From Nakamurella aerolata (GTDB lineage Bacteria > Actinomycetota > Actinomycetes > Mycobacteriales > Nakamurellaceae): a stretch of DNA of 64,000 nucleotides. Numbering within the stretch: the stretch's first letter is position 1; the number at the start of each line of letters is the position of its first letter. The stretch is from the NCBI RefSeq assembly GCF_013002705.1, contig NZ_JABEND010000002.1:1-64000 (forward strand). The letters are read 5' to 3'. Positions 22,068 to 54,700 of the stretch are shown here, one piece after another. The translations under genes and the position numbers were made by a program. The notes beneath the pieces are model-generated. The model saw nothing but the letters and a program-made list of their open reading frames with translations. It did no database searches and was not told where the DNA came from.

Positions 22068-23900
22068 TCAGGCCAGGTCTTCCGGGTCGACCTTCCGGCC
22101 TGCACCGGAGTCGATCCCATTGCCCAGCCGCCGCCGGTACACCCGCGACTCCCAGGGTCGCAGTAACGTGCCGGTGTCGTCCGGGTAGTTCCGCAGGATC
22201 AGTTCACCGGCCGCATGCTCGGCGTACTCGGGCAGGTCGAGTTCCAGGTTTTCACCGGAGAAGTTCGCCACCACCAGTAGCGACGTCTGCTCCGATGCGC
22301 GGACGAACGCGTACAGCGACCGGTGATCCGGCACCAGCATGCGAAACGTTCCGGTGGTGATCACCGGCTCGGAGTGGCGCAGCGCGATGAGCGCGCGGTA
22401 GTGGTGGAACACCGAGTCCGGATCGGACCTTTGCTGGTCGACGCTGATCTCGATGTGGTTGGGGTTGACCGGAATCCACGGTGTCCCAGCGGTGAATCCG
22501 GCGCCCGGCCCGCCATCCCACTGCATCGGCGTGCGGGCATTGTCCCGGCCGTAGGCCCGCAGTCCGGTCAGGACATCGGATTCCGGCACGCCGGCGCCGA
22601 TCGCCTCGTCGTAATGGTTGATCGATTCGATGTCCCGGAAGTCGGCGCGGCCGGCGAACGGGGCGTTCGTCATCCCGATCTCCTCGCCCTGGTAAACGTA
22701 CGGCGTGCCCCGGTGTAGGTGCAGGACGGTGCCGAGCAGTTTGGCGGACTCGATTCGGTACTTGCCGTCATCGCCGAACCGGGAGACCACCCGCGGCTGG
22801 TCGTGGTTGTTCCAGTACAGGCTGTTCCAGCCGACGCCCGCCAGCGCGGTCTGCCAGCGGCCGAGGCTCGCCTTCAGCTCGCGCAGGTCCAATTCCTGCG
22901 GGTCGAACTTGTGATCTCCGTGGTCCAACCCGACATGCTCGAACTGGAAGACCATGTCCACCTCGCGGGACCGGGGGTCGGTGAACCTGATCGCCTCGTC
23001 GACGGTGACGCCGGGCATCTCTCCGACGGTGAGCAGCGGCGTCGGCGCGGTCCCGAACACCGTGTCATGCAGGTCGTTCAGGTATTCGTGGATCCGCGGG
23101 CCGCAGGTGTAGAAGGGGGCGCCGTCACCGAACCGGGAGCCGGAGCCGACGATCCCATCCGGCAGTCCCGGCACCTTGGACAGGAAGTTCACGACGTCCA
23201 GCCGGAATCCGTCCACCCCGCGGGCCAGCCACCAACGCAGCATGTCCGCCACCGCCGCCCGGACCCGTGGATTCTCCCAGTTCAGGTCCGGCTGCTTGCG
23301 GGAGAAGATGTGCAGGTAGTACTCGCCGGATGCCTCGTCGTACTGCCAGGCCGACCCGCCGAACGCCGAGCCCCAGTTGTTCGGTTCGGCGCCGGGGGAG
23401 CCGGGGGTCATCCCGCGTCGAGCGGGCCGCCAGATGTACCAGTCCCGCTTGGCGGAATCCTTGCCGGACATCGCTTCCACGAACCAGGGATGTTCATCGG
23501 AGGTGTGGTTGACGACGACGTCGATCATCACCCGCAGGTCGCGGCGATGCGCCTCGGCCACCAGGGCGTCGAAGTCCGCGAGGGTGCCGAACACCGGGTC
23601 GACGTCAGTGTAATTACTGATGTCGTAACCGTTGTCGTCCTGCGGGGACGGGTAGAACGGCGATAACCACACCACGTCGACGCCCAGTTCGGCCAGGTAG
23701 TCCAGCCGGGAGATCACACCGGGCAGATCGCCGATGCCGTCGCCGTTGGCGTCGGCGAAGCTGCGCGGGTAAATCTGGTAGACCACGGCGCGCTGCCACC
23801 AGGTGTCTGGACCGCCCGGTTCCCGCAGCGCGGTGGCCGGCGCCGTCGCGCCGAATCCTGCGGTGTCCGGTACTGCGGTGTCGGGCGTTTCGGTCGTCAT
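22068..23900 (-). CDS. GH13 alpha-glucosidase (oligo-1,6-glucosidase type)
   Basis: A 610-residue glycoside hydrolase family 13 enzyme. It starts the catalytic part with WWQRAVVYQIYPRSFADANG. Conserved regions are DVVVNHTSDEHPWF, the nucleophile D235 in GFRLDVVNF, the acid/base E294 in TVGEMPGVT, and D367 in NNHDQPR. There is no signal peptide, so it acts in the cytoplasm, releasing glucose from the non-reducing end of imported oligosaccharides. The sequence style fits the alpha-1,6/alpha-1,4-glucosidase subfamilies. It is translationally coupled (ATGA) to the secreted GH66 gene upstream, placing it in the glucan locus. Confidence 0.92.
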   Translation of the reverse strand: MTTETPDTAVPDTAGFGATAPATALREPGGPDTWWQRAVVYQIYPRSFADANGDGIGDLPGVISRLDYLAELGVDVVWLSPFYPSPQDDNGYDISNYTDVDPVFGTLADFDALVAEAHRRDLRVMIDVVVNHTSDEHPWFVEAMSGKDSAKRDWYIWRPARRGMTPGSPGAEPNNWGSAFGGSAWQYDEASGEYYLHIFSRKQPDLNWENPRVRAAVADMLRWWLARGVDGFRLDVVNFLSKVPGLPDGIVGSGSRFGDGAPFYTCGPRIHEYLNDLHDTVFGTAPTPLLTVGEMPGVTVDEAIRFTDPRSREVDMVFQFEHVGLDHGDHKFDPQELDLRELKASLGRWQTALAGVGWNSLYWNNHDQPRVVSRFGDDGKYRIESAKLLGTVLHLHRGTPYVYQGEEIGMTNAPFAGRADFRDIESINHYDEAIGAGVPESDVLTGLRAYGRDNARTPMQWDGGPGAGFTAGTPWIPVNPNHIEISVDQQRSDPDSVFHHYRALIALRHSEPVITTGTFRMLVPDHRSLYAFVRASEQTSLLVVANFSGENLELDLPEYAEHAAGELILRNYPDDTGTLLRPWESRVYRRRLGNGIDSGAGRKVDPEDLA

Positions 23901-26497
23901 GCCAGCTCCAGGTGATCGATGTTCACGGCACCGGAATCCGTGCCGCCGTGCCAGAGGACGACCGAGTGCAGCCCGGCCTTCAGTGGAAACCGGACGGTGG
24001 CGGTGGCCCAGGTGTCCCAACTCCCAGTCGCAGGCAGGGTGAGCGGGATCGAGGTGGCTCCGTCCACCGCTAGCGTGCGGGTGGTGGTAGTCGGTGCGGC
24101 GTAACGGATCCGCAGTGTTGCCTCACCGGTTGCGGCCGCCCTCATTGTCGTAGTAACTCCGGTGTTCGGGGCGGCGAAATTATCGACGAACCCGGATCCG
24201 GTGTAGCCGGGGTGATCGGTGCCGACGGTGACGCCGGTGCGAACCGCAGTCTCGGCCTCGTAGCGGCCACCGGCGGGAGTGGCGAACTCGCGCTCCAGAT
24301 AGAGCATGTCCCAGGTCCGCAGTTCGGGCACGGTGAACGAAAGGTAGCGTCCGGCGGAGTCGGTGCCGACGGCGTAGGGCAGGTTTGTGCTGCGGCCCCC
24401 GTCGCGGTCGGGAGAGGCGACCCGCAGGTCGCCTGGTTGCAGGTCAGGGCCGATGTAGTACCTGACCTTCAGATCGCGCTGAACCGGTGGCGTTGTCTTG
24501 CCGCTCGGCCGCCACCGATCGTCGTTGCCGAGCAGATTGATCAGCTGGATCACGTCGTGGTCGGCCGACCGTTTCGCGTTGACCCACACCGTGTTTGGCT
24601 CGGCGGCGCCGCTGGTGGCGATCCCGTCGACGGTCACCACCTGGCGACCGGAGTCGATGGAGTACACATCCGGGCCATAGAGCAGGTTCTCGTACGCAGT
24701 GGTGAAGTCGTAGAAGCCCTCCATCCAGCCGGCCAGGTCATTGCTCAACTGCTTGGAGAAGTCCGGGAAGTACGGGTTGGACAGCATATTCGCGTCCTGT
24801 CCCATCGCGATCGCCGAGGCGCCGGAGGCGGCGAATGCAGCGTTGGCCAGCTTGACCGACGTCGGGTCGAACTCGCCGAGCACAAGGCTGTCCAGGTTGA
24901 TGAACCCGGTGTCGGTGGCGGTCAGCTCCAGGGTGATCGTGTGCTGTCCTGCCGTCAACCGGGTGGTGATCGATTGCGGGAGTTTCCAGGTATCCCACGA
25001 CCCGGCCGGCTGGAATTTGACAGTTCCCACCGGCGTGCCGTCCACCTTGACCGTTCTGCTGGCGACCGCGCCGGTGGCGTTGCCGTAGCGGAAGTTCAGC
25101 GAATAGCGCCGGGTTTCCGGGGCGGTGACGGTGAACTCGACCCGCTGGCCGACGGTGCCGAACTTGTCGACGAAGCCGGGCCCGGTATATCCGGAGTGGT
25201 TGGTGTTGGTGCCGAGCGTCTCGGACAGGACGGCCTGCTCGGCCTCGTACCGCGGCCCGGAGTTGTCGTGGTTGTTGAGGTACCCGGCGATCACCCGGGA
25301 TTCGCCGCCGGACAGCCGTTGCTGCCGATCGAGCAGCGCCTTAACGTCCAGGTACTTCTCGTGCCGGTCCCAGAGTTCGGTGTACAGGTAGTCAACAACA
25401 CCGCTGGTCGCGATCGCGTCGGAACCGAATCCGTCTACCGCGTTCATCCCGACCACCGTTCCCGCCGAGCCTGCAAGGGCTCGGTCGGATGCCTGCAGCA
25501 GCGAGCGGAAGCCGGCGGGCAGGTCGACCGGCTTGCCTGCCCAGTCGGTCATCGCGCCCCAGTCGCCGAGCTGGTCGACGTGCACCCCGTCGAAGCCCAT
25601 GGTGTCGACCTGGTCCCGGTACTGCGCGGTGATGTGGCGCTGCCATGAGGGGTTCGCCGGATCGAACATGTACAAATTCGCGCCAGGGATCATCTCGAAA
25701 TCCCACGGGGTGCCGTCGGCATACTTGAGCCGCCAGTCGTCGGACAAGCCCGACACCTGCTGGTAATTGTTCAGGGCGGCGTAGGACATTGAGTACGGCA
25801 GTGCCGCGACGTTCTGCTGGTGTGCGGCGGTGATATACCGGGAAACCGTCTGTGGCGCAATCACATCACCGTTCCATGCGGTCCATGTGGTCGCCAGGCT
25901 GCCGGCTGCATCGCGTTGGATCGGCTTGTCGTGCCGCCACATCCAATCGTAGAACTGCAGGGCGTTGAGGTGGTATTTGCGCTGTAGCAGCCGAATCTGG
26001 GCGTCGGCCTGGGCCTGGGTCAGGCCGGCCGGATAGGCGGACAGGAAGCCGATCCGCGGGAAAACCGTCCAGTCCGACGACACGTCGACCGCCGCCGACG
26101 CGGTGGCCCCGCCCGCGGTGATCTGCACCAGGTAACCCTGGTAGTCGGCGGCCGGCGGCGTGAACGTCCAGTTCGCTGTGGTGGTTGGGGCGGCGGTGGC
26201 CGTGACCGTTGCGGTGGCCACCGGCTCTCCCAGGTGTGTGACTGTGAAGGTGACCGGGCCGGTCCAGGTTCCGCCGGCGGCGGACAGGTCGGCGGAGACG
26301 GTGACCGGTTGGCCCGGCGCGTATCGGGGCAGGTCGACGTAGGCGTCGCCGACCGTGACGGTCGCAGCGGCGACCGACCGGTCCCCGGTCGTCGGGGGCG
26401 CGGCGCCGGCCGCGGATGCGACCGCGGGTGCGACGATGGCGGCGGTGGCAACTGCGAGGGCGAGGTTCAGGTGTCGGCGATACCGCAGGCGGCCCAT
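23897..26497 (-). CDS. Secreted GH66 dextranase/cycloisomaltooligosaccharide glucanotransferase
   Basis: An 866-residue exported enzyme. A signal peptide (LALAVATAAIVAPAVASAAG) is followed by an Ig-like domain (about 45-145). A GH66 barrel starts near IGFLSAYPAG and includes LNALQFYDWMWRHDKPIQ. Predicted nucleophile D308 (GVHVDQLGD) and acid/base E374 (YTELWDR) are 66 residues apart, close to the 68-70 spacing in characterised GH66 enzymes. A CBM35-like module interrupts the catalytic part at about 417-543, an arrangement known from cycloisomaltooligosaccharide glucanotransferases (CITases) rather than plain dextranases. A second CBM35-like module ends the protein (745-866). It should cut or cyclise dextran outside the cell. 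Confidence 0.85.
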   Translation of the reverse strand: MGRLRYRRHLNLALAVATAAIVAPAVASAAGAAPPTTGDRSVAAATVTVGDAYVDLPRYAPGQPVTVSADLSAAGGTWTGPVTFTVTHLGEPVATATVTATAAPTTTANWTFTPPAADYQGYLVQITAGGATASAAVDVSSDWTVFPRIGFLSAYPAGLTQAQADAQIRLLQRKYHLNALQFYDWMWRHDKPIQRDAAGSLATTWTAWNGDVIAPQTVSRYITAAHQQNVAALPYSMSYAALNNYQQVSGLSDDWRLKYADGTPWDFEMIPGANLYMFDPANPSWQRHITAQYRDQVDTMGFDGVHVDQLGDWGAMTDWAGKPVDLPAGFRSLLQASDRALAGSAGTVVGMNAVDGFGSDAIATSGVVDYLYTELWDRHEKYLDVKALLDRQQRLSGGESRVIAGYLNNHDNSGPRYEAEQAVLSETLGTNTNHSGYTGPGFVDKFGTVGQRVEFTVTAPETRRYSLNFRYGNATGAVASRTVKVDGTPVGTVKFQPAGSWDTWKLPQSITTRLTAGQHTITLELTATDTGFINLDSLVLGEFDPTSVKLANAAFAASGASAIAMGQDANMLSNPYFPDFSKQLSNDLAGWMEGFYDFTTAYENLLYGPDVYSIDSGRQVVTVDGIATSGAAEPNTVWVNAKRSADHDVIQLINLLGNDDRWRPSGKTTPPVQRDLKVRYYIGPDLQPGDLRVASPDRDGGRSTNLPYAVGTDSAGRYLSFTVPELRTWDMLYLEREFATPAGGRYEAETAVRTGVTVGTDHPGYTGSGFVDNFAAPNTGVTTTMRAAATGEATLRIRYAAPTTTTRTLAVDGATSIPLTLPATGSWDTWATATVRFPLKAGLHSVVLWHGGTDSGAVNIDHLELA

Positions 26498-26543
26498 GGG
26501 TTGTGCCTCTCGTTCGGTGGAGCAGGGGCGGGTCGGAACGTGC

Positions 26544-28148
26544 TCAAGCGGGTTCGACGACGACGAGTTGCCAGATCCGCGGAGCGGGAAGCTCGGCGCA
26601 GGACCACCCGCCGTCGTCGGTCACCGCGACATCGACCAGCCGCGGTGCGCGGTCCGGATCCGCGGCCCGGACCCGCAGCGGTCCGGGCCCGAACCGGCGG
26701 ACCCGTAGCGTCCCGGGACCAGGATCGCTGGGGGTTGCCCTGGCGGCGTCCCAGTCGGTGTCCGGCTGTCCGGTCAGGTTGATCAAATGCACCACGTAGC
26801 GGTGGCCGACTCGGCGGATGATTCGCCACACGCCACCGGCGGCGGCGTGCTCACTGACCGGTGTGTCGTGGTACTCCACATCCAGATCGTCGTTGTACCG
26901 CCCGGCCATCGACCGAGTCACGTCCGGTCCGGCGGGGAACAGCAGTTCGCCGTGCTCTACCAGGAAGTCGTACCAGCGGGCCAGCAGATCGGTGGTCGAT
27001 GGCTCGGCGATGTGGTTGCGGACGTAGTACGGATCCACCAGGACCCGGTCGGCCTCGCCGGCAAGGAGCTGGGTAGCGCCGTGTGCCCCCAGGGTGGCCA
27101 TGGTGAGCGCCGTAGCGATGTCTCCAATCCGGGCGTCGACGTCGTCATAGAGATGCTGGTAGGCGGCTAGCACTACCGGTTTCCCGGGGGCAGTCGCAGC
27201 GGCCGAGGTGGCGATGTCGGCCAGATGCTGCAAGGTGGTCGACGGCGCCCATGGCTCGACGTAGACAATGTCCTGCTCGACCGCGCCGGTGCGCCAGGTC
27301 GGAAAGTCGTTGACCTGGTTGAATATCAGCCGGTGATCGGGCAGCTCGGCGCGCACGACGGCGATCATGGTGGAGAAGCTCTCGGCAACGTCGACGGCGA
27401 TACCGTCGGCGCGAACGGCGTGTTTGGGGTAGCCGTACTGGTCCAGGTGGAAGCCGTGGAAGCCCAGTTCCGCGGCGACGCTCAGGTCGGCCCGCAGATG
27501 GGCGAGCCACTGCTCGTGCGCCGGGTCGACGATTCGGAGGAAATCGCCGAGGCCGTAAGGATTGCCGTCGGCAGCCAACAGTGCCGCGTGCCGCCAGTCG
27601 TCCCACTCCTGGTTGCCCACCGCATAGACGGCGGCATACCCGATGGCTCGGCTGCCCGCTGCCGCCAGCCGACCGATCAGATCCCGCACGGCGTCCAGGG
27701 AGATCGGCTGGCCCAGCGGATCGTCGTAGACCTCTCCGCCGCCGACCAGGTCGGCATGCCGGAATGCCCAGTCGTAGCACTGGATGTCGGTCAGGTGCAG
27801 TCGCCGTACATTGTCAATCACCGGGTCCCACCGCCGCCCGGGCGGGAAGCTGGCCACGAAGCCGTACCGCTGTACCGGGGCGCCGGCCGGCGCAACCTCG
27901 ACTGCGGTTCTGGCCAGCACCACCCCTGAAGCGTCGACGAGTTCGATGCCGTACCCGCCGACGGGCAGGACTCCGATGTCTGTCAGTGGCTGGACCGGCT
28001 GCCGGCCAACGGTTTCGCCGAGTGCGTGGGTCACCAGCTCAGCGTCGACCCGCACACCCCGAACCTCGATGAGCACCGGTTCGTCGGGACCGAACCGGGC
28101 CATGGTCGGCAGCAGCACCGGGTCCGCCGGCGAGGCGGGAATCGTCAT
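26544..28148 (-). CDS. Cytosolic GH66-like glucan hydrolase
   Basis: A 534-residue relative of the secreted enzyme, with neither signal peptide nor CBM35 insertion. It keeps the GH66 block LTDIQCYDWAFRHADLV, then a predicted nucleophile D236 in GFHLDQYGY and acid/base E298 in VYVEPW, 62 residues apart. An N-terminal beta domain (about 1-95) and a C-terminal beta domain frame the barrel. The ATG at 28148 overlaps the permease stop, so it is made together with the importer. Role by inference: opening or shortening imported isomaltooligosaccharides, possibly cyclic ones, before the GH13 enzyme finishes. Family assignment is by motif reading. Confidence 0.75.
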   Translation of the reverse strand: MTIPASPADPVLLPTMARFGPDEPVLIEVRGVRVDAELVTHALGETVGRQPVQPLTDIGVLPVGGYGIELVDASGVVLARTAVEVAPAGAPVQRYGFVASFPPGRRWDPVIDNVRRLHLTDIQCYDWAFRHADLVGGGEVYDDPLGQPISLDAVRDLIGRLAAAGSRAIGYAAVYAVGNQEWDDWRHAALLAADGNPYGLGDFLRIVDPAHEQWLAHLRADLSVAAELGFHGFHLDQYGYPKHAVRADGIAVDVAESFSTMIAVVRAELPDHRLIFNQVNDFPTWRTGAVEQDIVYVEPWAPSTTLQHLADIATSAAATAPGKPVVLAAYQHLYDDVDARIGDIATALTMATLGAHGATQLLAGEADRVLVDPYYVRNHIAEPSTTDLLARWYDFLVEHGELLFPAGPDVTRSMAGRYNDDLDVEYHDTPVSEHAAAGGVWRIIRRVGHRYVVHLINLTGQPDTDWDAARATPSDPGPGTLRVRRFGPGPLRVRAADPDRAPRLVDVAVTDDGGWSCAELPAPRIWQLVVVEPA

Positions 28149-28987
28149 CCCTTCACCGCCCCGGAGGTCAGGCCCTGCACGAAGTGCCGCTGGAATGCCA
28201 GGAAGATGACGATCACCGGGATGATCGCGATGACCGAGGCGGCGAACACCAGGCCCCACAGGGTGGAGTTCTGGCCGTGGAACAGATTGATGGCAACAGG
28301 CAACGTGTTCTTCTCCGGCGTGGTGATGATGGTCAGCGCCCAGGCGAACTCGTCCCAGTTGGCCAGGAACGAGAAGATCGTCGCCGTGGCCAGCGCCGGC
28401 CGGGACAGCGGCAGGATCAACTGGAAGAACCGGCGGACCGGGCCGGCCCCGTCCATTTCCATCGCCTGCTCGAGTTCGGCGGGGATCTCGGCGAAGAAGC
28501 CGCGGAGCAGGAACGTGTTCAGCGACAGGGAGCCGGCGATGTAGAAGACGACGAGGCCAGCCATCGAGTCGAGCAGACCGAGGTACTTGGCCAGCAGGAA
28601 CTGCGGGATGATCAGCATCATCGTCGGCACCATCAGCCCGATCAGCAGCACCCGGAACAGCACCTCGCGGCCGCGGAAACGAAAGCGGGCGAAGGCATAC
28701 GCCATCATCGAACTGATCAGCAGTGACCCCGCGGTGGACAGCACCGTCACCACCAGCGAGTTGAGGAAGTAACGGGGGAATCCTTGGGTGCCCCAGGCGT
28801 CCCGGTAGTTCTGCAGGGTCGCCGGCTGCGGGATGAACTGCGGCGGGATTGTCAGGACAAAGGTCTGCTCTTTGAACGAGGTCGACAGCATGTACAGGAA
28901 CGGCAGCACCATCACGATCGAGCCGACAGCCAGCAGCCCCCACCGTGCCGCCGTGCCGGCCCTGCTGCCGGTGACAAGGGCGCTCAT
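28145..28987 (-). CDS. Sugar ABC transporter permease (MalG-type)
   Basis: A 280-residue permease with six helices. The EAA loop is ELEQAMEMDGAGPVRRFFQ, and the C-terminus (AFQRHFVQGLTSGAVKG) matches the family's second sugar permease. It overlaps both neighbours by four bases, the other permease upstream and the cytosolic GH66-like gene downstream, so transporter and enzyme are coupled in translation. Confidence 0.93.
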   Translation of the reverse strand: MSALVTGSRAGTAARWGLLAVGSIVMVLPFLYMLSTSFKEQTFVLTIPPQFIPQPATLQNYRDAWGTQGFPRYFLNSLVVTVLSTAGSLLISSMMAYAFARFRFRGREVLFRVLLIGLMVPTMMLIIPQFLLAKYLGLLDSMAGLVVFYIAGSLSLNTFLLRGFFAEIPAELEQAMEMDGAGPVRRFFQLILPLSRPALATATIFSFLANWDEFAWALTIITTPEKNTLPVAINLFHGQNSTLWGLVFAASVIAIIPVIVIFLAFQRHFVQGLTSGAVKG

Positions 28988-29937
28988 GTCGCACTGCCCA
29001 TCCGGCCGCGGAAGGCCCGCAACTGCAGGATCGAGATGATGAAGACGGCGATGGTGAGCAGTACCGCCATCGCTGCGCCGTAGCCGTACTCGCCATCGGC
29101 GAACGCGAGTTGGTACATGTATGTCAGCAACACCTGGGTCTGCTGGGCCGGTCCACCGTCGGTCATCACCAGCACGGAGGTGAAGACGTTGAAGCCGCCG
29201 ATCACCAGCATTACGACCACGAAAGCCAGCGCCGGGAAGATGGCCGGGAGGGTGACGGCCCGGAATCGGGCGAGCGCCCCGGCGCCGTCAACGGCCGCCG
29301 ATTCCTCCAGGTCGCGGGGGACTCCCTGCAGTGCCGCCAGGAAGATCATCATCGACCAACCGACGCCTTTCCAGATGCCCAGCACGGAGATGGCGGCCAT
29401 GGCGGTCCACCGGTCGCCGAGCCAGGAGATGTTCCCGTCGGTCAGCCCGGTGACATCGCGGAGCGCCCAGTTGATGACGCCATTGTCGGCGAACAGGTAC
29501 TTGAACATCAGCGAGACCACCACCCAGCTGGTCACTACCGGCAGGTAAAACAGCACCCGGAACAGGGCCCGGGCCGGTGCTTTCCGGTTCAGCAGGATCG
29601 CAACCAGCAAGCCGAGAACCACCTGGATCGGCACCGTTATCGCCATGTACACGCCGCTGTTGACGAGCGCTCGCCAGAAGATCGGATCGTCGAAAGCCCT
29701 GCGGTAATTGTCGAATCCGAGGAACTCGCTGGAGAGTCCCTTGAGCACCTTCCAGTCGTACAAGCTCATCTGGAAGGCCTGCATCATCGGATAGATGATG
29801 GCGGCGAGGAACAGGATCATGCCGGGAGCCAGGAACAACCACGGCGTGAGGCCGGCACCCCGGGGCCGCCGGGCACGGGCAGCGGTGCGGGGCACGGGGG
29901 CGCTTGCACGCACCGGCGGCCGATCGAGGACGGTCAT
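28984..29937 (-). CDS. Sugar ABC transporter permease (MalF-type)
   Basis: A 317-residue permease, first subunit of the pair. A cytoplasmic Arg-rich leader precedes the helix LTPWLFLAPGMILFLAAIIY. The EAA loop is DLEESAAVDGAGALARFRAV, followed by VMTDGGPAQQTQVLLTYMYQ. It starts 72 bases after the binding-protein gene ends. No ATPase is encoded in the locus. Confidence 0.93.
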   Translation of the reverse strand: MTVLDRPPVRASAPVPRTAARARRPRGAGLTPWLFLAPGMILFLAAIIYPMMQAFQMSLYDWKVLKGLSSEFLGFDNYRRAFDDPIFWRALVNSGVYMAITVPIQVVLGLLVAILLNRKAPARALFRVLFYLPVVTSWVVVSLMFKYLFADNGVINWALRDVTGLTDGNISWLGDRWTAMAAISVLGIWKGVGWSMMIFLAALQGVPRDLEESAAVDGAGALARFRAVTLPAIFPALAFVVVMLVIGGFNVFTSVLVMTDGGPAQQTQVLLTYMYQLAFADGEYGYGAAMAVLLTIAVFIISILQLRAFRGRMGSAT

Positions 29938-30009
29938 CGGTTCGGTGTCATCGAGGTCGACGTCATGGTTGAAATGGTCCGATCGGATTCGTCGGCGGGA
30001 ATCGGCGGG

Positions 30010-31302
30010 TCAGGAGGAGGGCGACAGCAGAGGGTCGATCTGCTTGGCTGCTTCGGTCAGGGCATCCTTGACGCTCGCCTTCCCGGTGAAGGCCTGCGTG
30101 AGCGCGTCATTGAGGATGGTGTCGATCTTCGACCCGTCCGGGACGGCTGGCCGCGAACGCGCGGTCTTGAGTTGTTCGGCAAACGGGGCCAGCTCCGGGT
30201 ACTTCTTGGCCGCCGCGTCCCCCAGGCCGACCACGCTGGGCATCTGGCCGGTGGCGGCCATCTCCAGCTGGAACTGCTCGCCCTGGGTGAACTCGATGAA
30301 CTTCAACGCGGCGTCCTTGTTCGGCGATTCCGCTGTCAGGACGATGTTCTCGCCGCCCACCACCGAGATTGAACCGCCCTTGCCCTCCGGCATCGGGGAG
30401 TAGGTGGGCTCGAAGTCGGGATACTGGCCGGACCACACGCCGGCCATCCATGGCCCGTCCAGGATGGTCGCGTAGCTGCCCTTGGGCAGGCCGTCCGAGG
30501 TCGGGGTGCCGCCTTTGTTGCCGGTGATCAGGTTCGGGATGGCCTGCTGTTGGTACAGGTCCACCAGCATCTGGACCGCCGCCACGGTCTCCGGGCTGTC
30601 CAGGTAACCCGTTGCGGTGGTGAGCTTTTCGTCGGTCAGTGAGCCGCCACCCGACCAGATCCATGGCAGCACGTTCCAGGTCTGCAGGCCGCTGTCTGCG
30701 AAGACGGAAACGTTCTGCTCAGCCAGCTTCGGTCCAGCCGCGACCAACTCCTCGATTGTCTTCGGCGGCTTGCTCAGCCCAGCCTTCGCCAGTGCCTCCG
30801 GGTTACTGATCAGCACCCGGGTGTTGGTGTCCAGCGGCAACCCGTAGTAGTGGTCCTCCCACTTGTTGGTCGCCAGCGAGCCTGGGTAGGTCTTGTCCGC
30901 GAACTTCTGGAAGTTCGGCATGGCGGTGTCCAACGGTTCGAGGGCCCCGTCGTCGGCGAACCTCGGGACCCAGCCAAGGTCGGCCCGGATCAGGTCCGGC
31001 AGTTGCCCGCCCGACGCCGAGGTCTCCAGCTTCTGCAGGAATGAGTCGTACGGGACGTCCACGTAATCCACGCTGACGCCGGGGTTCGCGGCTTCGAAAG
31101 CCGGGATCAGCGACTTCTGAAGTACGTCGGTCTGGGTCCTATTGCCGCCGTTGCCGTAGGTGCCCCAGAAGGTGAGGGTGACTGGTGCCGTGGAGTCCGA
31201 CGACCCGGGCGCGGGGGACGCCGGTTTCTGATCGGAACCGCAGGCGGCCAGCACCAGGGCCGCCGCCGTGGTGGCGACGAGGCGGGAGAGGCGGTGGGAC
31301 AT
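30010..31302 (-). CDS. Sugar ABC transporter substrate-binding lipoprotein
   Basis: A 430-residue family 1 binding protein. The lipobox VLAAC puts the lipidated cysteine at residue 21, followed by a short Pro/Ser linker (about 22-40), in contrast with the very long linkers of the other binding proteins here. The mature domain has VTLTFWGTYGNGG, the hinge YGLPLDTNTRVLISNPEAL, and WNVLPWIWSGGGSLTDEK. By neighbourhood the ligand is an isomaltooligosaccharide, linear or cyclic. It is the first transporter gene after the regulator; a GAGGAG-type ribosome site precedes the ATG. Confidence 0.9.
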   Translation of the reverse strand: MSHRLSRLVATTAAALVLAACGSDQKPASPAPGSSDSTAPVTLTFWGTYGNGGNRTQTDVLQKSLIPAFEAANPGVSVDYVDVPYDSFLQKLETSASGGQLPDLIRADLGWVPRFADDGALEPLDTAMPNFQKFADKTYPGSLATNKWEDHYYGLPLDTNTRVLISNPEALAKAGLSKPPKTIEELVAAGPKLAEQNVSVFADSGLQTWNVLPWIWSGGGSLTDEKLTTATGYLDSPETVAAVQMLVDLYQQQAIPNLITGNKGGTPTSDGLPKGSYATILDGPWMAGVWSGQYPDFEPTYSPMPEGKGGSISVVGGENIVLTAESPNKDAALKFIEFTQGEQFQLEMAATGQMPSVVGLGDAAAKKYPELAPFAEQLKTARSRPAVPDGSKIDTILNDALTQAFTGKASVKDALTEAAKQIDPLLSPSS

Positions 31303-31393
31303 GAGAGCTCCTCGCTACAGATGCGGATGTGGACGATCGGTTGGGGCGATGTGTTCGGGTAGCTAGCAGGCGGCCGCCCACGGGGCGTCGGGT

Positions 31394-32578
31394 TCAGGTA
31401 CCGAGCCTGCCGAGGGAGCCAAGGACGCTGCGGCGCAGCATGCCGACGGCGGCGCCGGCCGCCCATGCCTCGTCCGGCAGTGGCCGGACGAGCAACTCGC
31501 AGTCCATCGCGATCGACGAGAACGCATCCGCCGTCAGTTGCTCGCGGACCGCGTCGGTCCAGATCGGGGACGAGTGCACGCCTTCACCGGACAGGATCAC
31601 CAGGGCCGGGTTCATCAGGTTCACCAGTACGGCAAGGCCGCGACCGAGTGCGCGACCCGCTTCCCGGAAGACCTCCTTGAGTGGTTCGGACCCCGCCGTC
31701 GCCAGCCGGTAGGCCTCGGCGGCGGAGGAGATCGGTTGCCCGACAGCGTGTTCGGCTGCCCGGGCGATGGCCTCATCGTTCGCGACCGCCTGCACGCAGC
31801 CGACCCGGCCGCAGTCGCAGCGGGCGCCGTCGGCAGCCACCCTGATGTGTCCGAACTCGCCGGCTGCGCCGCTGACGCCGGTCCACAGGTCCCCGTCGAT
31901 GACCAGCCCGCAACCGATTCCGGCGCCAACTGTCACCACGGCGAACGAGTCGACACCGCGGCCGGCACCGAACCATTGTTCTGACAGGGCAAGGGAATTG
32001 ACGTCGTTCTCGACGGTGACCGGGAGGCCGGTCGCCGCTGTCAGTCGTCCGGCCAGTGGAACGGAGGGCCAGCGCAAGCTCGGCGAGAAGCGAACGACGC
32101 CGGTGGCGTTGTCGACGTGGCCGCCGATGCCGACGCCGATGCCGCAGGTGCGCTCGCGAGCCTGCGGAACCCGTTCGCGCAGATGGGCGACCAGGGCCGT
32201 GACGGTGCCGACGACCTCGTCCGGATCGGTGCCGTCGACAGGCTGTCTGACCGCAGCACACTGGTTTCCACCGAGATCGATCACCACCCCGATTACCTCG
32301 GTAGCCATCACCTTGACGCCGATCGAGAACTGCCGTTCCGGGATCACCTGCAGCGGGATCTGCGGACGGCCGGGACCGGCGGTGATCGGGGCGATCTCCT
32401 CGATGTAACCGGCGCTGAGCATCGGTTTCACCAGCTTGGTTACCGACGCCTGGGAAAGGCCGGTGGCGTTGGCGACATCCCGGCGACAGACAGGCCCGGT
32501 GGTGAGGATGGAGGTAAATACCTGGCCCGCAGTGCCAGTACGCACTTCGGTCGGCGGATGCTGCGTCGCCTGTGACAT
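31394..32578 (-). CDS. ROK family transcriptional regulator
   Basis: A 394-residue NagC/XylR-type repressor. The N-terminal winged helix (about 15-75) includes CRRDVANATGLSQASVTKLV. The ROK sugar-kinase-like domain follows, with VVIDLGG, GIGVGIGGHVD, TVENDVNSLAL and GVSGAAGEFGHIRV. The zinc motif reads CDCGRVGCVQA, keeping the cysteines but with glutamine where glutamate is usual. Such regulators are released by a sugar or sugar phosphate. Its position at the head of the glucan locus makes it the likely controller. The ATG at 32578 is preferred; a TTG at 32641 lies inside the proposed operator. Confidence 0.92.
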   Translation of the reverse strand: MSQATQHPPTEVRTGTAGQVFTSILTTGPVCRRDVANATGLSQASVTKLVKPMLSAGYIEEIAPITAGPGRPQIPLQVIPERQFSIGVKVMATEVIGVVIDLGGNQCAAVRQPVDGTDPDEVVGTVTALVAHLRERVPQARERTCGIGVGIGGHVDNATGVVRFSPSLRWPSVPLAGRLTAATGLPVTVENDVNSLALSEQWFGAGRGVDSFAVVTVGAGIGCGLVIDGDLWTGVSGAAGEFGHIRVAADGARCDCGRVGCVQAVANDEAIARAAEHAVGQPISSAAEAYRLATAGSEPLKEVFREAGRALGRGLAVLVNLMNPALVILSGEGVHSSPIWTDAVREQLTADAFSSIAMDCELLVRPLPDEAWAAGAAVGMLRRSVLGSLGRLGT

Positions 32579-32622
32579 GCCCACCACCGTCCTTGGTTGT
32601 GCCGACGAGCTGAGCATGGCGC

Positions 32623-32643
32623 ACTTGATAAATTTCGTCAAGT
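32623..32643 (-). promoter_or_regulatory. Inverted-repeat operator candidate for the ROK gene
   Basis: ACTTGA-N9-TCAAGT is a perfect six-base inverted repeat with an AT-rich centre, 45-65 bases upstream of the ROK ATG. On the minus strand it contains TTGACG, a plausible -35 box, so bound repressor would block RNA polymerase. The AT-rich spacer stands out in this GC-rich region. Autoregulation is inferred. Confidence 0.5.
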
Positions 32644-32932: not shown

Positions 32933-33259
32933 ATGGCTGCACCGAGGAAGTTCGATCAGGAGACTCGTGATCGGGCGGTTCGGATGTATTCGGACCGGCT
33001 GGAGCGGTATGGCGAGTCCAAGCGTGAAGCACGTCGCCAGGTCGGTGCCGTGTTGGATGTCAACGAGGCATCGATTCGGAACTGGGTCGAGGCCGGTGAG
33101 CGGGCTGCGGGGACCCGGCCGGGGGTGTCACGTCCGGCTGATTCCGAAGAGGTGCGGGCGTTGAAGCGGCGGGTCGCCGAGCTGGAACGGGCGAACGAGA
33201 TCCTGAAGACCGCGAGCGCGTTTTTCGCTCAGGCGGAGCTCGACCGCCGACTCAAGTGA
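32933..33259 (+). CDS. IS3 transposase OrfA (HTH)
   Basis: A 108-residue helix-turn-helix protein typical of IS3 OrfA: FDQETRDRAVRMYSDRL, EASIRNWVEAGERAAG, then a leucine-zipper-like helix LKRRVAELERANEILKTAS. A slippery G-TTT-TTC at 33220-33226, in frame with the TTT and TTC codons, could allow a -1 shift into OrfB. The OrfB frame is open from that point, giving the OrfAB transposase. Confidence 0.93.
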   Translation: MAAPRKFDQETRDRAVRMYSDRLERYGESKREARRQVGAVLDVNEASIRNWVEAGERAAGTRPGVSRPADSEEVRALKRRVAELERANEILKTASAFFAQAELDRRLK

Positions 33260-34191
33260 TGGTGGCCTACATCAGCGCATACCCGGACCGGTTCGGCGTC
33301 GAGCCGATCTGTGCCGTGCTGTCCGAGCACGGCATGAAGATCGCGCCGTCCACCTACTACGACCACCTCGCCCGGCCGGTCAGCCAGGCGGTACTGGACG
33401 AGGCCTGCGCGGTCAACGCGGTGGTCGACGTCCATCGGGCGAACTGGTCGGTTTACGGCGTCCGCAAGATGTGGCATGCGCTACGGCACGCCGGCCACCA
33501 GGTCGGCCGGGACCAGGTCGGGCGGCTGATGGGCATCGCCGGCATCCACGGCGCGGTCCGCGGCCGGCACCACACCACGACCACCCGCCGCGACCAGACG
33601 GCGGTGCGCCATCCCGATCTGGTCAAGCGTGGCTGGACAGTGCCGGTGCGGCCGGACCAGCTGTGGGTGGCGGACTTTTCGTATGTGTGGACGCTAGCCG
33701 GGTTCTGCTACGTGTCGCTGGTCACCGACGTGTACTCACGGCGGATCCTGGGCTGGCGGGTGGCGGCCAATAGGCACACCGCTCTGGTCACCGCCGCTCT
33801 GCAACAGGCACTGTACATCCGCCGCCGAGATGATATCCGTTTCACTACAACGGGTTTAGTCCATCATTCGGATGCCGGCAGCCAGTACACCTCACTGGCC
33901 TTCACCCAGGAGCTGATCGATGCCGGGATCGCCGGTTCGATCGGGACGGTGGGTGACGCGCTGGACAACGCGCTGATGGAATCGACGATCGGGTTGCTCA
34001 AGACCGAGGCGATCAATGCCCGGGACCGGACCTGGACCTCGCGGGCCGAGGTCGAGTGGGAAGTCGCCCGCTGGATTCACTGGTACAACACGACCCGGCT
34101 GCACTCCTCGATCGGCTACACCCCGCCCATCGAGTACGAACAGCGCTACCGTGACCGCACCACCGCCGGCCCCGCCCGGGAGTCGGCGTAA
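33256..34191 (+). CDS. IS3 transposase OrfB (DDE integrase core)
   Basis: A 311-residue rve-type integrase domain in the -1 frame relative to OrfA. The DDE triad is visible: aspartate in LWVADFSYVW, aspartate in VHHSDAGSQYTS, glutamate in ALMESTIGLLKTE, followed by the IS3-typical YNTTRLHSSIGYTPP ending. The frame looks intact, so the element may still be mobile. Start is the GTG at 33256 or ATG at 33259, if not made only by frameshift. Confidence 0.95.
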   Translation: MMVAYISAYPDRFGVEPICAVLSEHGMKIAPSTYYDHLARPVSQAVLDEACAVNAVVDVHRANWSVYGVRKMWHALRHAGHQVGRDQVGRLMGIAGIHGAVRGRHHTTTTRRDQTAVRHPDLVKRGWTVPVRPDQLWVADFSYVWTLAGFCYVSLVTDVYSRRILGWRVAANRHTALVTAALQQALYIRRRDDIRFTTTGLVHHSDAGSQYTSLAFTQELIDAGIAGSIGTVGDALDNALMESTIGLLKTEAINARDRTWTSRAEVEWEVARWIHWYNTTRLHSSIGYTPPIEYEQRYRDRTTAGPARESA

Positions 34192-51758: not shown

Positions 51759-54700
51759 ATGCGCAGCAACCCGCGCCGTCGTCGTCGCACCCGCCCGGCC
51801 CTGCTGACTCTGGCGACCGCCACTGCCATGGTGGTGGCGCTCCCCGGCGCCGCCACCGCAGCGGCCGGCCCGGCCGCCCCCGCCACCCCCGCCGCCAGGG
51901 CCGCGGCGCCGGCGCCGGGTCCGTCGGCAGCGGCCCCGGGCAGCGTGACGATCGCCGGCTCACTGCAGTCCGAGTTGGGCTGCGGCCAGGACTGGCAGCC
52001 GGGCTGCACCGCCACCGATCTGACCAAGGCCGCGGACGGTAGCTACACCGCCGACTGGAAGCTCCCGGCCGGGAAGTACGAATTCAAGGTCGCGATCAAT
52101 CATTCCTGGGACACCAACTACGGAGCCGGTGGCGTCGAGGGCGGCGACAACATCCCGCTGGTGCTGGCCGGTGCGGCGCGGCTGACCTTCCGGTACGACC
52201 CGGAAACCCACCTGGTCAGCATGACCCCCACCAGCCTGCCGTCCGATCAGGTCACCGCGCAGGACCGCGCCATCGCCGGCACCTCGCTGCGCCGCAACTC
52301 GAGCGACCGCTTCTACTTCGCGATGACCGACCGGTTCGCCAACGGCAACCCGGCCAACGACACCGGTGGCTACCCGGTGCCACCGGGAAGTACGCCGACG
52401 CAGGCCAGGCAGATCACCGGGCTCGACCCGACCAATTCCGGCTTCTACCACGGTGGCGATCTGCAGGGCGTCATGGACAAGCTGGACTACATCAAAGGCC
52501 TTGGCAGCACGGCAATCTGGCTCACCCCCACCTTCAAGAACCGGCCGGTGCAGGGCAGCGGCAACGAACTCTCGGCCGGCTACCACGGATACTGGATCAC
52601 CGACTTCACCCAGATCGACCCGCACCTGGGCGGCAACGCCGACATGAAGCGGCTGATCGACGCGGCCCACGCCAAGGGGATGAAGGTCTACTTCGACATC
52701 ATCACCAACCACACCGCCGACGTCATCGACTATCAGCAGGGCCCCGAGCGCAACTACGCCTACATCGACAAGAAGACCTCGCCCTACCGGGACGCGGCCG
52801 GCAAACCCTTCGACGATCGCGACTATGCCGCCGGCAACACCTTCCCCGCGCTGAACCTGCAGTCGTTCCCGTACACCCCGACGTTCCGCGAACCCGACGA
52901 CGACAAGGTCAAAGTTCCTGCCTGGCTGAATGATCCGCTGCGTTACCACAACCGCGGCAACGCCGCCTTCGACGGTAGCGAGGGCGACCAGTACGGCGAC
53001 TTCTCCGGCCTCGACGACCTGTTCACCGAACAGCCCGAGGTGCGTGACGGCATGATCGACATCTACTCGTACTGGGCCAAGTTCGGCGTCGACGGCTTCC
53101 GCATCGACACCGTGAAGCACGTCAACACCGAGTTCTGGCAGAAGTTCATCCCGGCCGTCAACAAGGCCGCAGCCGACGCCGGCAAGCCCGACTTCTTCCA
53201 GTTCGGCGAGGTCTACGAATCGGACCCGCGCAAGATGGCCTACTACACCACAACGGCCAAACTGCCGGCCACGCTCGACTTCGGATTCCAGTCGAGGGCA
53301 ACCGGTTTCGGCCTGAGCCAGCCCACCAGCTCGCTGGCCGAGCTGTACGCCGCCGACGACTACTACACCGACACCGACTCGAACGCCTACGCGCTGCCCA
53401 CCTTCCTCGGCAATCACGACATGGGGCGCATTGGCTACTTCCTGAACTCCGGCGGCAAGTTCTCCGACGCCGAACTGCTGCAACGCGATCAGCTGGTGCA
53501 GCAGCTGATGTTCCTCACCCGCGGCCAGCCGATCACCTATTACGGCGACGAGCAGGGCTTCACCGGCGACGGCGGCGACAAGGCCGCGCGTCAGGACATG
53601 TTCGCCAGCAAGGTCGCCGGGTACAACGACGACAAGCTGATCGGCTCAACCGGCAGCACCGCCACCGACAACTTCAACACCAAAGCGCCGCTGTACCAAG
53701 AGATCTCCGAGCTGTCGGCGCTGCGCCAGCAGCACCCGGCGCTCGCCGGCGGCGCCCAGATCCCGCGTTATTCGTCCGGCAGCGCTGGTGTCTTCGCGGT
53801 CAGTCGGATCGACGCCGGCGAGCAGCGCGAGTACGCGGTGGCCGCCAACAACGCCGACACCGCCAAGCAGGTCAGCTTCGCCGTCTACAACCCGAACACC
53901 AACTACCGGGCCATTTTCGGCGGCGACGGCGCCGCCGACACCGTCCGCAGCGGTCGCGGTGGCCAGTTCACCGTTACGGTGCCGCCGCTGAGCACCGTTG
54001 TCTACCGGGCCGACCAGAAACTGGCCAGGAGCAAGGCGGCGCCGCAACCGGTGTTCACCTCGGCACCAGGCGCCGTTGTCGGCGACCGCAGCCCCGTCGG
54101 CGTGGCGGTGCCGGCCGGCGGGTTCAACCAGGTGAGCTTCGCCTGGCGGCCGGCAGGCACCACCGGGTGGCGGCCGCTCGGCGTCGACGACAACCCGCCG
54201 TACCGGGTGATGCCCGACCTGTCCGGTGTCGCCGACGGCACCGTCGTCGAGTACCGGGCGGTGCTGCGCGACCACTCCGGCAACCTGGCGGCGGCGTCCA
54301 GCAGCGGCGTCGTCGGCACCCCACCGGCACCGCCGGCCAGTGGCGGCGAGGCGGTCAACGACCCACCGGCCACCCAACCCACCTCGGTCACCGTCGCCGG
54401 CGACCTGAACTCCGAGATGGGCTGCAGCGCCGACTGGCAACCTGACTGCGCCGCAGCGCATCTGCAGCTGGACGCCGCTTCCGGCATTTGGAAGGGCACC
54501 TTCACCCTGCCCGCCGGGAGCACCTTCCAGTACAAGGTGGCGATCGACGACTCGTGGACGGTCAACTACGGCGCCGGCGGCGCAGCCAACGGCGCCAACA
54601 TCTCGCTCACCGTCCCGGCCAGCGGCCGCGTCACGTTCTACTACCACCCCGGCAGCCATGTGGTCACCTCGGACGCCCAGGGACCGATCGTCACCGCGCC

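Follow-up and report, generated by a model that had tools for sequence, protein, structure and literature searches.

Can a single bacterial gene run make rings from dextran outside the cell, import them and open them inside? The question is raised by a seven-gene run of Nakamurella aerolata, located in positions 1 to 64,000 of contig NZ_JABEND010000002.1 (this 64,000-nucleotide stretch is the window). The run lies on the minus strand, from 32617 to 22068, and encodes, in order of transcription, a ROK-family regulator, a solute-binding protein, two permeases, a cytosolic GH66 enzyme, a secreted GH66 enzyme and a GH13 enzyme. A first-pass annotation had described this run with its domains, all of which were found by Pfam profile search. 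We consider it likely that the run is an operon for using dextran (α-1,6-glucan) by way of cycloisomaltooligosaccharides (CIs). The arguments for this reading are the position of the secreted enzyme in the clade of CITases (the enzymes that make CIs), its inserted CBM35, binding-protein contacts shared with the ring-preferring protein TdCIBP, a cytosolic GH66 of the type found in Paenibacillus sp. 598K, the relatives of the GH13 enzyme, a shared gene order and the presence of ATPase-like open reading frames (ORFs) elsewhere in the genome.

The secreted GH66 (23897..26497, minus strand, 866 aa) matches Pfam GH66 with 458 bits (cut-off 23.7 bits) over residues 55–733. The better of its two CBM35 stretches (Pfam CBM_35, residues 416–540, 24878..25252, minus strand) falls within this span and is collinear with 3wnk. 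The layout had been put forward as that of CITases, and PMC10316084 does describe a barrel-inserted CBM35 as specific to CITase. A C-terminal CBM35 (residues ~745–864, 23906..24265, minus strand) is indicated by CBM_35_2, the second CBM_35 stretch and matches to solved CBM35 domains. The N-terminus (~residues 1–32, 26402..26497, minus strand, boundary set by eye) is signal-peptide-like, basic and then hydrophobic, with a best 12-residue hydropathy mean of 2.55, compared to 0.88 for the cytosolic GH66 and 0.98 for the GH13 enzyme; the secretion calls rest on these means, without a dedicated predictor. The catalytic pair, D308/E374, aligns with that of the CITase of P. agaridevorans T-3040 (PaCITase, 3wnk). 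Among solved proteins, the enzyme scores 551 bits against PaCITase and 542 bits against the CITase of Paenibacillus sp. 598K (PsCITase), but 279 bits against the dextranase of T. pseudethanolicus (TpDex), 213 against that of F. johnsoniae and 72 against that of S. mutans.

Since the shared CBM35 supplies part of this bit-score margin, its columns were taken out and phylogenetic trees were computed from the catalytic part. A 129-row FastTree and a 63-row IQ-TREE, its rows chosen by hand from the 129, were used; both omit proteins of at least 1300 residues, locus ORFs shorter than 450 residues and the S. mutans dextranase. In both trees GH66 falls into three groups: cytosolic-type, dextranase and CITase. 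In the IQ-TREE, a CITase clade of 31 rows (support 100/99) holds the secreted GH66 together with the T-3040 and 598K CITases and that of T. thermocopriae, which entered as a partial ORF. Forcing the secreted GH66 to group with eight dextranase-type rows made the tree 116 log units worse (approximately unbiased (AU) test, p 1.6e-49); the eight rows were picked after the tree had been seen, while the question of CITase versus dextranase came from the first-pass annotation, which had proposed phylogeny as its check. The placement among dextranases is rejected, and the secreted GH66 is probably a CITase-type enzyme that would form cyclic products from dextran.

The cytosolic GH66 (26544..28148, minus strand, 534 aa, 57.8 kDa, Pfam GH66 215 bits) has neither a signal-like N-terminus nor a CBM35, and its catalytic pair is D236/E298 by alignment. 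A fold search with its predicted model returned GH66 entries at the top and other TIM-barrel enzymes acting on α-glucans or α-galactosides lower down. The draft genome (4.35 Mb, rated 95% complete) gives no GH66 match beyond the two proteins of the run. The cytosolic one lies, in the 63-row tree, in a 23-row clade (100/99) that also holds the second GH66 of Paenibacillus sp. 598K, to which it is 30% identical. An intracellular CI-degrading dextranase of that strain was reportedly described by Mizushima in 2019. The second GH66 of 598K has 629 aa and 69.7 kDa and shows no signal-like N-terminus by eye. As stated in PMC13084667, strain 598K imports CIs and possesses an intracellular, CI-inducible, CI-degrading dextranase. 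The second GH66 is probably this enzyme, because its size fits the reported one and because it is the sole other strong GH66 match in 598K.

The solute-binding lipoprotein (30010..31302, minus strand, SBP_bac_1 156 bits, LAAC lipobox by eye) finds its best solved match in 9xf5/9xfu with 261 bits, the next best reaching 128 bits. We take 9xf5 to be TdCIBP, as the chain has the residues named in PMC13084667 at the numbers given there; according to the same paper, TdCIBP binds rings with a KD of 0.045–0.11 µM. The window's protein is 36% identical to TdCIBP and keeps all seven core contacts (R115, D117, N168, W217, W290, E322 and R389), compared with three of seven in each of the controls 8art, 5ci5 and GacH, as read off printed alignments. 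When the window's binding protein was aligned with the 39 of the fetched loci that score >150 bits, W217, W290 and R389 were present in 40/40, R115 and D117 in 39/39 with the region present, N168 in 38/40 and E322 in 34/40.

The binding protein is followed by permease 1 (28984..29937, minus strand) and permease 2 (28145..28987, minus strand), both with a BPD_transp_1 domain. The claim of a sugar ATP-binding cassette (ABC) importer holds for the binding protein and the two permeases, but the ATPase, its nucleotide-binding subunit, is absent from the run. OB_MalK matches occur at three places of the genome outside the run, two of them in ORFs that start like sugar-importer ATPases by eye, and their pairing with these permeases is putative.

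The last gene (22068..23900, minus strand, start codon ATG 23900, Alpha-amylase domain) encodes a predicted cytosolic GH13 α-glucosidase of the oligo-1,6-glucosidase type. Its closest solved relative is the oligo-1,6-glucosidase 1uok (677 bits, first of 266 solved matches). The nucleophile motif is DVV, with Val following the nucleophile Asp, and a Val in this position is a marker of α-1,6 specificity. ATGA overlaps join permease 1 to permease 2, permease 2 to the cytosolic GH66, and the secreted GH66 to the GH13 gene. Thus the start–stop overlaps claimed for the run are present, except between the two GH66 genes, which have a 46-nt gap. The gaps between the binding protein and permease 1 and between the ROK and binding-protein genes are 72 nt and 91 nt, respectively. 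The G+C content of the run is 0.668, compared to 0.682 for the rest of the window.

Gene order was surveyed in 79 named loci, taken from the best 80 of 93 matches, with contig ends shortening some of the stretches. In 56 of the 79, a full-length match was present in which residue 506 of the inserted CBM35 could be aligned. A cytosolic-type GH66 was found in the fetched stretch of 6/8 loci from Actinomycetota, 26/45 from Bacillota and 0/3 from Chloroflexota. The 45 Bacillota include seven giant proteins of ~1400 residues that are not clearly CITases, none of which (0/7) has a cytosolic-type GH66, leaving 26/38 without them; a Thermoflexales GH66 (L043), missed by the counting rule, branches between the cytosolic-type group and the rest in both trees. 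A binding protein, two permeases and a cytosolic GH66 adjoin a CBM35-bearing secreted GH66 in Leifsonia (L003), Pseudonocardiales (L004), Cellulomonas (L049) and Mesobacillus (L006), and because the grouping recurs in these loci we regard it as more than chance. The order is matched most closely by the Pseudonocardiales locus, with a weaker GH13 match (248 bits), and the Cellulomonas locus, with a divergent ROK gene. In Leifsonia and Herbiconiux the secreted GH66 gene stands elsewhere beside the run.

The secreted enzyme is a separable part of the system, and the trait is rare and patchy in the lineage. Among 16 other genomes of the same genus, only one (G400) has any GH66, and in a class-wide sample GH66 was found in 3/394 genomes, the present one counted. 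In G400 and in G265, a genome of the same class, the binding protein, permeases, cytosolic GH66, GH13 and ROK genes stand alongside one another, and the cytosolic GH66 is the only GH66 match. Such runs without a secreted ring-maker (L118 and L119, one of them in the same genus) may belong to scavengers. Three further operons keep all core contacts of the binding protein (3/3), with Phe, Ser and Ser at position 275.

Some surveyed loci deviate in ways of their own. In T. thermocopriae (L046, 4513–15721) the CITase is spread over two ORFs, of 366 and 1173 aa, and short ORFs are also seen for the binding protein and permease 2, possibly through sequencing errors or decay. In another genome (G114; L117, 7745–8860), permease 2 and the cytosolic GH66 have an extra ORF of 371 aa between them; it is GH15-like by eye and might replace the GH13 exo-enzyme.

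In the pathway we propose, the secreted GH66 would attack dextran through its Asp/Glu pair, the chain being guided by the inserted CBM35, and the glucosyl-enzyme would be transferred to the chain's own non-reducing end, giving rings and some linear isomaltooligosaccharides. The lipid-anchored binding protein would capture rings and longer linear chains and pass them to the two permeases, which would borrow an ATPase encoded elsewhere. Inside, the endo-acting cytosolic GH66 would open the rings and shorten chains, and the GH13 enzyme would take glucose off the isomaltooligosaccharides. The ROK protein would probably repress the run until a sugar signal arrives. The first-pass annotation had likewise proposed that dextran is cyclised outside and that the rings are imported and linearised inside; the CITase clade, the TdCIBP match (261 versus 128 bits) and the gene order support this route, with cyclisation and ring binding predicted from sequence.

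The logic is that of the cyclodextrin pathway, which consists of CGTase, a cyclodextrin-binding protein and a cytosolic cyclomaltodextrinase. There, too, a polymer is cyclised and the ring imported and opened inside, but the linkage is α-1,4 and the enzymes belong to GH13, whereas here the linkage would be α-1,6 and GH66 would serve for both ring-making and ring-opening. For CIs themselves, PMC13084667 states that CITase forms them, that they are regarded as the imported form and that a CI-inducible dextranase degrades them in the cell; the paper also sets CITase gene clusters side by side. Since the pathway is thus published for Bacillota, the earlier proposal re-derives a known one. The T. 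decaturensis cluster (L018) resembles the window's in that the genes for a binding protein, two permeases, GH66 enzymes and a CITase with CBM35 all run in one direction, and the same flow of rings formed outside, imported and degraded inside is proposed for it (PMC13084667). It differs in having a GH15 enzyme, which gives isomaltooligosaccharides from maltodextrin according to the same paper, while the window's run has no GH15. The cytosolic-type GH66 next to the T. decaturensis CITase is broken into a 292-aa and a 294-aa ORF (8859–10582 of L018), whereas the window's is one protein of 534 aa; a second T. decaturensis GH66 has an open frame and a hydrophobic N-terminus and falls in the dextranase clade. 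Strain 598K shares with the window a secreted CITase and a signal-less GH66 from the same two clades, but its second GH66 lies on the opposite strand, ~14 kb away from the CITase, compared to 46 nt within one run here.

The pathway is therefore not new in kind, and the locus is a well-formed further example of it. What is new is the complete actinobacterial-type run, the sister operons without a secreted enzyme, and the loss of outer large-ring contacts hinting at smaller rings. Ring-based dextran use, known from Bacillota, would be extended to a compact actinobacterial-type operon in which the probable ring-maker and the probable ring-opener come from a single enzyme family. The locus makes a clean system for tests, with two GH66 genes that are 46 nt from each other and whose enzymes are expected to do opposite work, a binding protein whose ring contacts are altered, and sister operons lacking the ring-maker.

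Several observations weigh against the CI-type reading. The sole NCBIfam model matched by the two GH66 proteins is one for endo-dextranases (302 and 118 bits, far under the cut-off of 730), and many GH66 homologues carry the database name 'dextranase'. Three of the 31 CITase-clade rows, all in its actinobacterial part (Nonomuraea, Saccharothrix and Streptomyces), have no inserted CBM35, so that clade membership alone is no proof of cyclisation. The aromatic at PaCITase position 514, a distal glucan subsite, is missing from the secreted GH66; this aromatic is seen in solved CITases and is not taken as CITase-defining. The link to the 598K dextranase leans on a reported size, and that strain has a weak third GH66 match (27.7 bits). 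The GH13 enzyme passes the NCBIfam α,α-phosphotrehalase subfamily model NF008183 (630 bits, cut-off 535), and hence sequence alone leaves the phosphotrehalase name standing; it lies under the cut-off of the phosphotrehalase equivalog TIGR02403 (680 bits versus 799). In the binding protein, R91 and W275 of TdCIBP are replaced by Asp and Ser.

In PMC13084667, W275 of TdCIBP is placed against Glc1 and Glc8, and E66, R91 and W275 are among the conserved CIBP residues. Position 275 is Trp in 33/40 of the aligned binding proteins; the seven lacking it come from the window, Pseudonocardiales, Leifsonia, Cellulomonas, Actinokineospora, Mesobacillus and Thermoflexales. R91 is missing from those seven plus four others, and two more rows lack that region. 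The E66 position is Gln in two alignments, beside a four-residue insertion, in a register (T61–E66) that is unreliable and on which the alignments disagree. The window's protein has the common central grip and not the full published CIBP set; given the loss of R91 and W275 we call it CIBP-like instead of filing it as a CIBP, and its binding of rings is a prediction.

If rings were at most a by-product, the same genes could serve an ordinary linear dextran pathway, in which the secreted GH66 is mainly an endodextranase and linear isomaltooligosaccharides are imported and shortened by the cytosolic GH66 and the GH13 enzyme. The importer need not require rings, since TdCIBP also binds linear isomaltooligosaccharides of 4–7 units (PMC13084667), and the non-aromatic residue 514, the CBM35-less relatives within the CITase clade, the sub-cut-off endo-dextranase match and the runs with importer, cytosolic GH66 and GH13 gene but no secreted GH66 would all suit such a pathway. 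However, the secreted GH66 stands clearly apart from dextranases, its inserted CBM35 keeps the canonical sugar-site Trp, and the binding protein best matches a ring-preferring one; a cytosolic endo-enzyme would also be needed more for rings than for short linear chains. We regard the linear pathway as unlikely. Far less probable still is that the target is another cyclic or branched α-glucan, such as cycloalternan or cyclic maltosyl-maltose, of which the GH66 pair would handle only the α-1,6 stretches. The C-terminal CBM35 of the secreted GH66 does match that of the cycloalternan-forming enzyme, and the GH13 enzyme also matches Lmo0184, which reportedly belongs to a cycloalternan gene group, but no GH31 enzyme was found in the run by Pfam search, the cyclic maltosyl-maltose binder 7bvt scores 95.5 bits compared to 261 for TdCIBP, and GH66 is a family that acts on α-1,6-glucan. 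A supply of α-1,6-glucan made by the bacterium itself was also considered and set aside; four GH31 matches occur in the genome, the best being an ORF of 850 aa with no obvious signal peptide by eye.

With the CI-type operon as the preferred reading, the residues of the inserted CBM35 raise the matter of ring size. In CITases this domain has a canonical sugar site (Trp507 of PsCITase) and a lateral site, where Trp515 of PsCITase forms subsite −6, and Trp514 with Tyr499 and Phe501 of PaCITase forms subsite −8, tied to CI-8 as the main product (PMC5408701). The PsCITase variant W515A gave lower output with the same product size (PMC5408701). The secreted GH66 retains the canonical sugar-site Trp and the catalytic pair, and has Lys, Gln and Ser in place of PaCITase Tyr499, Phe501 and Trp514 (position 514 is Ile in a second alignment). 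With the lateral aromatics lost, CI-8 is not expected as the main product, though the true ring size is not readable from these residues. Position 514 is non-aromatic in 17/17 CBM35-bearing rows of the close actinobacterial group (the window, L003, L004, L009, L049 and twelve proteins, L049 and P0189 being the same protein), and likewise in five rows further away (L037–L039, P0225 and P0230). Three other actinobacterial rows (L005, P0185 and P0188) have Tyr there, and in the CITase clade five rows from Paenibacillus have Ser.

We tentatively suggest, as possible and not as the expected outcome, that the actinobacterial branch runs a small-ring CI pathway, with producer, importer and opener tuned to rings of four to six glucose units. 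The suggestion combines the loss of the CBM35 lateral aromatic in the secreted enzymes with the loss, in the binding proteins, of the residue stacking against the far side of a ring of eight glucoses. Strict covariation of W275 with position 514 was considered and rejected: of the seven loci without W275, four are non-aromatic at 514 and three (L005, L006 and L043) have Tyr. The small-ring reading thus rests on two partly independent losses. If it is true, relatives without the secreted enzyme would be scavengers of their neighbours' rings or chains, and a different ring size would mean new enzymes for making small cyclic isomaltooligosaccharides. Both the production and import of smaller rings by this branch and a life of the secreted-enzyme-less relatives off the products of others are worth following.

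GH66 enzymes of Agreia and Microbacterium trichothecenolyticum reportedly form cycloisomaltotetraose (CI-4) and carry CBM35 and CBM13, and the gene cluster around them is said to be in print. Our literature search on actinobacterial CI systems, CI-4 enzymes included, found no paper among the entries listed, in a coverage that leaves out most subscription journals. Compared by reported domain make-up and not by sequence, those enzymes have a CBM13 where the window's enzyme ends in a second CBM35. In the 63-row tree, proteins with CBM35 and CBM13, together with CBM35-less and Actinomyces/Trueperella rows, form the sister group of the secreted GH66 and one further protein, P0122 (joint clade 99/95). 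The Cellulomonas enzyme of L049 has CBM35 and CBM13, and its locus has the same gene order as the window.

The ROK-family regulator (31394..32617, minus strand, Pfam ROK 184 bits) is encoded in an ORF that opens with TTG at 32641, and inspection of the start candidates favours ATG 32617 as the likelier start. Directly upstream of this start lies an AT-rich, perfect 21-nt inverted repeat (32623..32643), which is a candidate operator only: it has two matches in the window at one mismatch, and since 12/100 shuffles gave at least two, chance may explain it. No repeat of the same sequence was found in the homologous regions scanned, and it remains a candidate. A transposase pair of the IS3 family (32933–34191, plus strand), which lies ~300 nt upstream of the ROK gene and is encoded on the strand opposite to it, is a possible mark of acquisition. 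Some 20 kb from the locus, an amylopullulanase-like enzyme of 1961 aa (51759–57644, plus strand) has α-amylase, X25, CBM48, weak CBM20 and pullulanase C-terminal domains.

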